DNA from: Lentisphaeria bacterium
GTDB lineage: Bacteria > Verrucomicrobiota > Lentisphaeria > Victivallales > Victivallaceae
Direction of reading: 5' to 3'
Length of the DNA: 58,370 nucleotides
Assembly: GCA_017450705.1 (NCBI GenBank)
Contig: JAFSTC010000038.1
Coordinates: forward strand, 1-58,370
The translations under genes were made by a program, and so were the position numbers. Every line of letters starts with the position of its first letter. Within the stretch, counting starts at the first letter, position 1. Under the pieces are notes generated by a model. That model was not told the DNA's origin and searched no databases. It worked only from the letters and a program-made list of their open reading frames with translations. Shown here piece after piece: positions 44,636 to 44,759 of the stretch.

Positions 44636-44759
44636 ATGAAGCGCGCCTGACGGCGCATGAAGCATTTTGCGGCTTCGCCGCAAAATATGAAGCACCGCCG
44701 CCGCGGTATGAAGCGAAGCCCGAGGGCTTCATTCATGATTTTTGCGTACAAAAATCATG
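44636..44759. repeat. Hairpin array separated by the 7-bp repeat ATGAAGC
   Basis: ATGAAGC occurs at 44636, 44657, 44687 and 44708. Each copy is followed flush by a perfect or near-perfect hairpin that ends where the next copy starts: GCGCC/GGCGC with loop TGAC (44643-44656); ATTTTGCGGC / GCCGCAAAAT with loop TTC (44664-44686); ACCGC/GCGGT with loop CGCC (44694-44707); GAAGCC/GGCTTC with loop CGAG (44715-44730). A fifth hairpin, CATGATTTTTG / CAAAAATCATG (44734-44759), touches the end of the tRNA gene. Confidence 0.8.

Follow-up and report, generated by a model that had tools for sequence, protein, structure and literature searches.

The stretch analyzed here, henceforth the window, covers positions 1 to 58,370 of contig JAFSTC010000038.1 from a Lentisphaeria bacterium (GCA_017450705.1), in which an array of short hairpins joined by the 7-bp repeat ATGAAGC occupies positions 44636-44759, directly behind the 3' end of a tRNA-Val gene. 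The array is real rather than a chance arrangement, and forms one arm of a modular element that has dispersed copies and is probably a selfish mobile element directed to the CCA end of tRNA and transfer-messenger RNA (tmRNA) genes. The locus consists of the following features:

44889..46202, minus strand: gene upstream of tRNA-Val, a neighbor outside the element, with synteny to the nearest relative that ends precisely where the tRNA does (by comparison); presumably CapA-like, judged from the sequence
44758..44831, minus strand: tRNA-Val (anticodon TAC), the host gene in front of the element (ARAGORN and the tRNA-Val of ~20 relatives)
44734..44759, no strand assigned: junction hairpin CATGATTTTTG-CGTA-CAAAAATCATG, one half being formed by the 3' end of the tRNA (sequence and relatives)
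44708..44732, minus strand: cap, reading ATGAAGC-CCTCGGGCTTC-GCTTCAT in the sense of the tRNA (sequence and comparison with full copies)
44636..44714, minus strand: arm 1, four GCTTCAT heptads (ATGAAGC on the plus strand) with three perfect hairpins between them at 44694-44707, 44664-44686 and 44643-44656 (sequence and DNA fold)
44601..44635, minus strand: probable distal relic CACCTTTCTCGCTTTCGGGCGAAAA…, a weak assignment from a 9-nt match to three other loci (L333, L003, L004)
44585-44557, minus strand: predicted sigma-70-like promoter of the kinase gene
42563..44515, minus strand: hybrid histidine kinase gene, a neighbor outside the element (gene analysis)

The original prediction, made from the window alone, had described four ATGAAGC copies, each followed flush by a perfect hairpin in units of 21, 30 and 21 bp, together with a fifth hairpin of 11 bp against the tRNA, the whole lying between a tRNA gene and the promoter of a hybrid kinase; all of these coordinates hold. 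The heptads start at 44636, 44657, 44687 and 44708, and the spacers between them (GCGCC-TGAC-GGCGC, ATTTTGCGGC-TTC-GCCGCAAAAT and ACCGC-CGCC-GCGGT) are perfect hairpins without a base to spare on either side. Directly after the fourth heptad stands GAAGCCC-GA-GGGCTTC, and an inverted copy, GCTTCAT, at 44726-44732, which had been overlooked, caps the array; the 11-bp AT-rich hairpin at 44734-44759 shares the last two bases of the tRNA-Val. In 60 windows simulated by an order-2 Markov model, not one 7-mer formed a run of at least three copies with flush hairpins of 5 bp, in comparison with a run of four in the real window. Genome-wide counts were obtained from pattern searches; for example, ATGAAGC-N5-35-ATGAAGC yields 23 matches in the window's own genome versus 0 for the reversed control pattern.

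Three fuller, two-armed copies of the array (C12, C19, C36) are present elsewhere in the same genome, along with several fragments, which rules out an assembly artefact at the contig end. Read in the sense of the tRNA, a full copy comprises the tRNA ending in CCA, a junction hairpin, ATGAAGC, CTGAAAAGGC, TTC, arm 1, GCCTTTTCAG and arm 2, with the hairpins of arm 1 joined by GCTTCAT and those of arm 2 joined by ATGAAGC, such that the two arms are mutually inverted. The segments CTGAAAAGGC and GCCTTTTCAG can pair across arm 1 as a long-range helix, and this helix varies in a paired way between copies (CGTCAGGC with GCCTGACG; CTGTCAAGGC with a near-complement). Of these parts, the window retains arm 1 and one strand of the helix, the 5' one, since the inner CCTCGGGC of its cap takes the same position as CTGAAAAGGC and CGTCAGGC in the full copies. 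Because the helix partner and arm 2 with its ATGAAGC-joined hairpins are missing, the window array is, by comparison with the full copies, a truncated one. Lentisphaeria copies terminate in …ATGAGAGTT. In one further genome (G030), a locus (L334) carries the linker GTGAAGC/GCTTCAC in two tandem arrays, indicating that the heptad itself evolves between genomes.

The earlier statement that the stems are fully paired while their sequence changes was borne out by a covariation test on 46 distinct 13-nt spacers, which were selected by heptad spacing alone. In these spacers, 96.5% of the stem cells are paired, as opposed to at most 43% in slid controls; double-changed cells number 100 against 33.4 expected, and the covariation score was reached by none of 500 shuffles. 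On the GCTTCAT strand, 49 of 87 loops are of the type GNA or GNNA, as opposed to none on the other strand, and a C-G pair closes 76 of the 87. Loops of the form C-GNA-G have exceptional stability in single-stranded DNA and are favored by DNA rather than by RNA. The DNA fold of the window copy returns every hairpin, whereas the RNA fold (folding z-score of -5.9) does not keep the individual hairpins; loop type and predicted DNA fold thus favor a single-stranded DNA stage.

The search for further copies proposed with the original prediction found many, both in the own genome and in relatives, where up to 167 pattern matches occur in one genome versus 0 for the control pattern. Among the matches listed from contigs of bacterial genomes and from viral contigs, the element is spread over at least two phyla of gut bacteria (represented by Lentisphaeria and Oscillospirales); arrays with ATGAAGC as their linker are likewise present in genomes of Clostridia. 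The arrays next to a tRNA or tmRNA gene are without exception on its 3' side (44 of 44; none 5'), all in the same orientation and with arm 1 proximal. Once four cases with another tRNA or an insert in between are set aside, about 40 arrays abut the gene directly, and 38 of these begin exactly after the encoded CCA, across 16 tRNA isotypes and tmRNA. At the window's own site, the encoded CCA of tRNA-Val is replaced (…ATCGCCCA|TGA, around 44756-44760), while nearly all of the ~20 relatives compared encode it; tRNA-Val(TAC) would therefore need CCA addition. The junction reads CACCATTTTTG…CAAAAATGGTG in relatives versus CATGATTTTTG…CAAAAATCATG in the window, with both hairpin arms changed together. 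In the nearest relative (G005; 85% identity over 3.2 kb), the match spans the neighboring gene and the tRNA and ends exactly at the tRNA 3' end, the element being absent; other relatives likewise have no array at the orthologous tRNA-Val. These comparisons strongly support the mobility of the element. Whole-element searches of phages and plasmids gave no DNA match, and most of the matches listed from a three-heptad scan of viral contigs are chance occurrences in coding repeats. One viral contig (L221; IMGVR_UViG_3300021478_000053) carries a genuine ATGAAGC hairpin array at 8005-8060.

A second class of target is the prepilin gene, in which about 28 copies (in G014 and other genomes) are all in frame, so that the same repeats are translated as part of the gene. 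All 15 distinct inserts that retain both copies of the FTLIELLV segment have a length divisible by three (192, 189 or 138 bp), and in each of them the gene frame is free of stops, with stops in at least one other forward frame; some prepilin genes hold two inserts in tandem. Here, too, half of the junction hairpin is host sequence (TCGATCAGCG-TTCA-CGCTGATCGA). Arrays in the prepilin frame with an FTLIELLV segment on both sides were recorded at L340-L358, L338, L339, L370, L371 and L375 (G014, G013, G028, G042). A 24-bp target duplication in these genes could not be established, the two FTLIELLV copies being too different in most of them. Rickettsia palindromic elements resemble this prepilin class, not the window copy, in being short palindromic mobile repeats that enter genes in frame (PMC10969869); they differ in that the inserts described here belong to other phyla, consist of hairpin arrays with heptads and use one specific target gene family.

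The design also has a published relative. Gut-1 was described as a noncoding RNA without a function and from the human gut only (PMC2864571), and its consensus (RF01706) consists of three hairpins joined by (A/G)UGAAAU. An Rfam scan of the own-genome copies gave tRNA and a weak Gut-1 match as its useful leads; neither the window nor its genome matches RF01706 at E<=0.001, and the best Lentisphaeria score of 39 bits lies under the 50-bit gathering cut-off. One copy (L004) aligned to the Gut-1 model nevertheless shows the same flush hairpins joined by a constant 7-mer. In Oscillospirales, Gut-1 exceeds the cut-off in 67 of 197 genomes, often with more than 10 copies, and the true Gut-1 copies constitute arm 1 of an element that has two arms and lies behind tRNA or tmRNA genes, complete with a long-range helix (TAAATCCACCC/GGGTGGATTTA and variants). 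Their linker is GTGAAAT, and ATGAAAT, GTGATAT and GTGAAGC occur as further linkers. In both families, a constant 7-mer links three covarying hairpins without gaps; they differ in the 7-mer (ATGAAGC here, (A/G)TGAAAT in Gut-1) and in that Gut-1 was described without arm 2, tRNA site or S23p gene. As aligned, Gut-1 and the ATGAAGC arrays are of one shared design. With this, the orphan Rfam family acquires a host range, a complete anatomy and a probable nature. The distal end of Gut-1 elements is conserved (…AAGAGTTCGAATTCATACGC…; L452, L454, L456, L457, L459) and contains a T-loop-like TTCGAATTC.

In some copies, arm 2 is followed by a gene for a protein of 115-119 amino acids that belongs to the S23p family (PF05635/TIGR02436, E 1e-25 to 5e-31; PDB relative 2rld, E 2e-33), named for the intervening sequences (IVS) of 23S rRNA (23S_rRNA_IVP). 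Among the loci examined, eight distinct places have the gene, and at every one it lies 28-181 bp from an array; its direction is that of the tRNA wherever a tRNA lies upstream. It stands inside the element at L337, L377, L378, L092, L474, L475, L486 and L487; another locus (L354) is a remnant, and L069 has 8-bp repeats. A reverse search, in which S23p genes were found by protein homology alone and independently of arrays, gave 7-bp repeat arrays flanking S23p in 15 of 16 records. Both of the phage-collection records have a two-armed array before the S23p gene, one of them also behind a tRNA, while in 13 of 14 plasmid records the short period that fits best is 7 on either side of the gene; in ~9 of the plasmid records, the two sides are mutual reverse complements, as in (AATTCGC)n gene (GCGAATT)n. 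These plasmids (L488, L490-L500) come from Nostoc, Treponema, Euhalothece and others, with S23p placed between tandem 7-bp arrays that are often mutually inverted. In Coxiella, tandem heptamers GACAGAT precede the S23p gene of an IVS (PMC4990558), and S23p-type genes have repeatedly been reported near CRISPR loci (clustered regularly interspaced short palindromic repeats; PMC3936711; PMC10910872). The literature covered in part yielded no report tying S23p to heptamer arrays generally, or Gut-1 to tRNA.

Taken together, the window array is best read, with a probability of roughly 0.7, as a truncated and non-autonomous copy of a selfish mobile element of the S23p/IVS type, whose insertions lie immediately 3' of the CCA with which tRNA and tmRNA genes end. 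The reading draws on what the compared sequences establish, namely the architecture, the covariation, the CCA-flush site, the orientation, the multi-copy spread, the presence or absence at orthologous sites and the S23p gene in several copies. Autonomous copies would consist of the junction hairpin, a helix strand, arm 1, the helix partner, arm 2 and a gene for the S23p four-helix-bundle protein. The Xanthomonas S23p protein is a pentameric ring (cited in PMC4990558); such a ring may bind heptads displayed between hairpins on one strand, and may direct copying or insertion behind the CCA. The cell would tolerate docking at this place, since CCA is where the mature tRNA ends. Copies lacking the gene would either move in trans or be dead, and the window copy, having presumably lost arm 2 and the S23p gene, would now be decaying, dead or dying; if tRNA maturation or the downstream kinase gene were affected, this would be incidental. 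The original prediction had left the choice among an RNA, a protein-binding array and a mobile repeat; the mobile repeat stands, given its many copies, its specific target, its presence or absence at orthologous tRNAs and its spread over two phyla, and a protein-binding array is plausible by association with S23p.

Several points weigh against this reading. No target-site duplication is seen at the CCA, and the S23p gene is absent from the window copy and from most others, so that its link depends on a minority of copies and the reverse search. Cyanobacterial plasmids carry 7-bp repeats elsewhere too (control windows reach 0.79-1.00 in 4 of the 10 loci with controls), and several of the plasmid records are related to each other. 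The Coxiella S23p gene is apparently untranslated (PMC4990558). Moreover, IVS share with the element a selfish insertion in a structural-RNA gene, an S23p gene and 7-bp repeats before it (Coxiella, PMC4990558), but they sit inside 23S rRNA, whereas the element lies 3' of tRNA or tmRNA; its heptamers are interleaved with hairpins, and the window copy lacks the gene. Located copies stand behind tRNA or tmRNA, in prepilin genes or elsewhere in the chromosome, and none of them lies within precursor 23S rRNA. The cyanobacterial heptanucleotide repeats (STRR) are likewise tandem 7-mers that flank S23p genes here, often inverted, but have neither hairpins between units nor a tRNA site. A wider proposal, to which we would give slightly less than an even chance, is that S23p proteins are the dedicated partners of heptamer arrays, and that IVS, Gut-1, the ATGAAGC arrays and the cyanobacterial and spirochaete 7-mers form one unrecognized superfamily that enters structural-RNA genes under the rule "directly after CCA of any tRNA/tmRNA". 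From the comparisons, the orphan family PF05635 ("four helix bundle protein") gains a candidate cognate site, and the field a testable identity for both Gut-1 and S23p proteins, on top of a mobile element whose target, the very CCA with which tRNA and tmRNA genes end, is striking.

Other explanations have been considered for the same observations. A functional structured noncoding RNA of the Gut-1 kind, or a tRNA 3' trailer, made in one transcript with the tRNA or next to it, in which selection on RNA keeps the hairpins and the unpaired heptads serve as binding sites, could draw on the stem covariation, the filing of a known relative as Gut-1 RNA, the folding z-score and the strand-biased loops. 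However, copy positions differ between relatives, copies lie within prepilin reading frames, the copy number is like that of a mobile element, the window hairpins survive in the DNA fold and are lost in the RNA fold, and the C-GNA-G triloop is a favorite of DNA. The data can be accounted for without an RNA function, which we regard as unlikely. Priming of reverse transcription from the CCA-3'OH of a tRNA would explain a junction exactly after the CCA at any tRNA or tmRNA, in accordance with the 38 flush junctions, the fixed orientation and the inclusion of tmRNA; Avd of diversity-generating retroelements, furthermore, resembles the S23p family (PMC10053308). This route is nonetheless improbable, since 10 of the 14 array-rich genomes have no reverse transcriptase gene (RVT_1), among them the own genome and G050 (97-98% completeness), which led to the rejection of reverse transcriptase as the mobilizer, and the prepilin sites would be left unexplained.

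The original prediction had recognized no CRISPR, repetitive extragenic palindromic (REP) or terminator pattern, and all three readings fail here. CRISPR arrays have repeats of ~21-48 bp and unique, non-palindromic spacers, while the repeats of the window measure only 7 bp and its spacers are palindromic. Mobilization as REP sequences, or as the bacterial interspersed mosaic elements (BIMEs) built from them, by a Y1 transposase (REP-associated tyrosine transposase, RAYT) would suit short palindromes with a constant foot that are both clustered and dispersed, and REPs may lie within genes (PMC3733652). Their stems are conserved within a family, however, and those of the array vary freely; the foot is the 7-mer ATGAAGC and neither GTAG nor CGTC, and no Y1_Tnp gene exists in the own genome (G000), G050 or G042, all of which are copy-rich, leaving this reading largely refuted. 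REP/BIME, BOX and repeats like miniature inverted-repeat transposable elements remain similar in being dispersed, modular, palindromic and intergenic, and differ by the 7-mer linker, the variable stems, the CCA-flush tRNA site and the lack of RAYT in several rich genomes. It is very improbable that the array is an ordinary tRNA terminator region whose hairpins arose by replication slippage or template switching, with covariation as a by-product of quasi-palindrome repair. Tandem identical units do exist (G042 C18), the hairpins lie immediately behind the tRNA, and junction hairpins in Clostridia look terminator-like by eye, with a T-run; yet the same heptads and hairpin order recur at unrelated tRNAs in unrelated genomes, copies in prepilin genes are in frame, and the site at 44734-44759 has no GC-rich stem with a T-run that would make it an intrinsic terminator.

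Other features were noted behind tRNA genes in these genomes. In two relatives (L394, L399), the CCA of tRNA-Val is soon followed by a small reading frame that looks GIY-YIG-like and has inverted repeats of its own (GTCTTC…GAAGAC); as a mobilizer of the arrays, the GIY-YIG nuclease was rejected for want of any correlation with array number. At three loci (L332, L024, L362), an extra insert of 220-260 bp separates the tRNA from the array and ends in a second tRNA 3' part (e.g. TGGTAGTCCGGG[A/C]GGGAATCGA), and it is a different tRNA-targeting insertion. Lastly, at L381/L422 (G005:C130), the 3' end of tRNA-Val is repeated (CGCCCACCAGCCTTCGAAAAGCC) ~170 bp downstream, representing another family of tRNA-end repeats.
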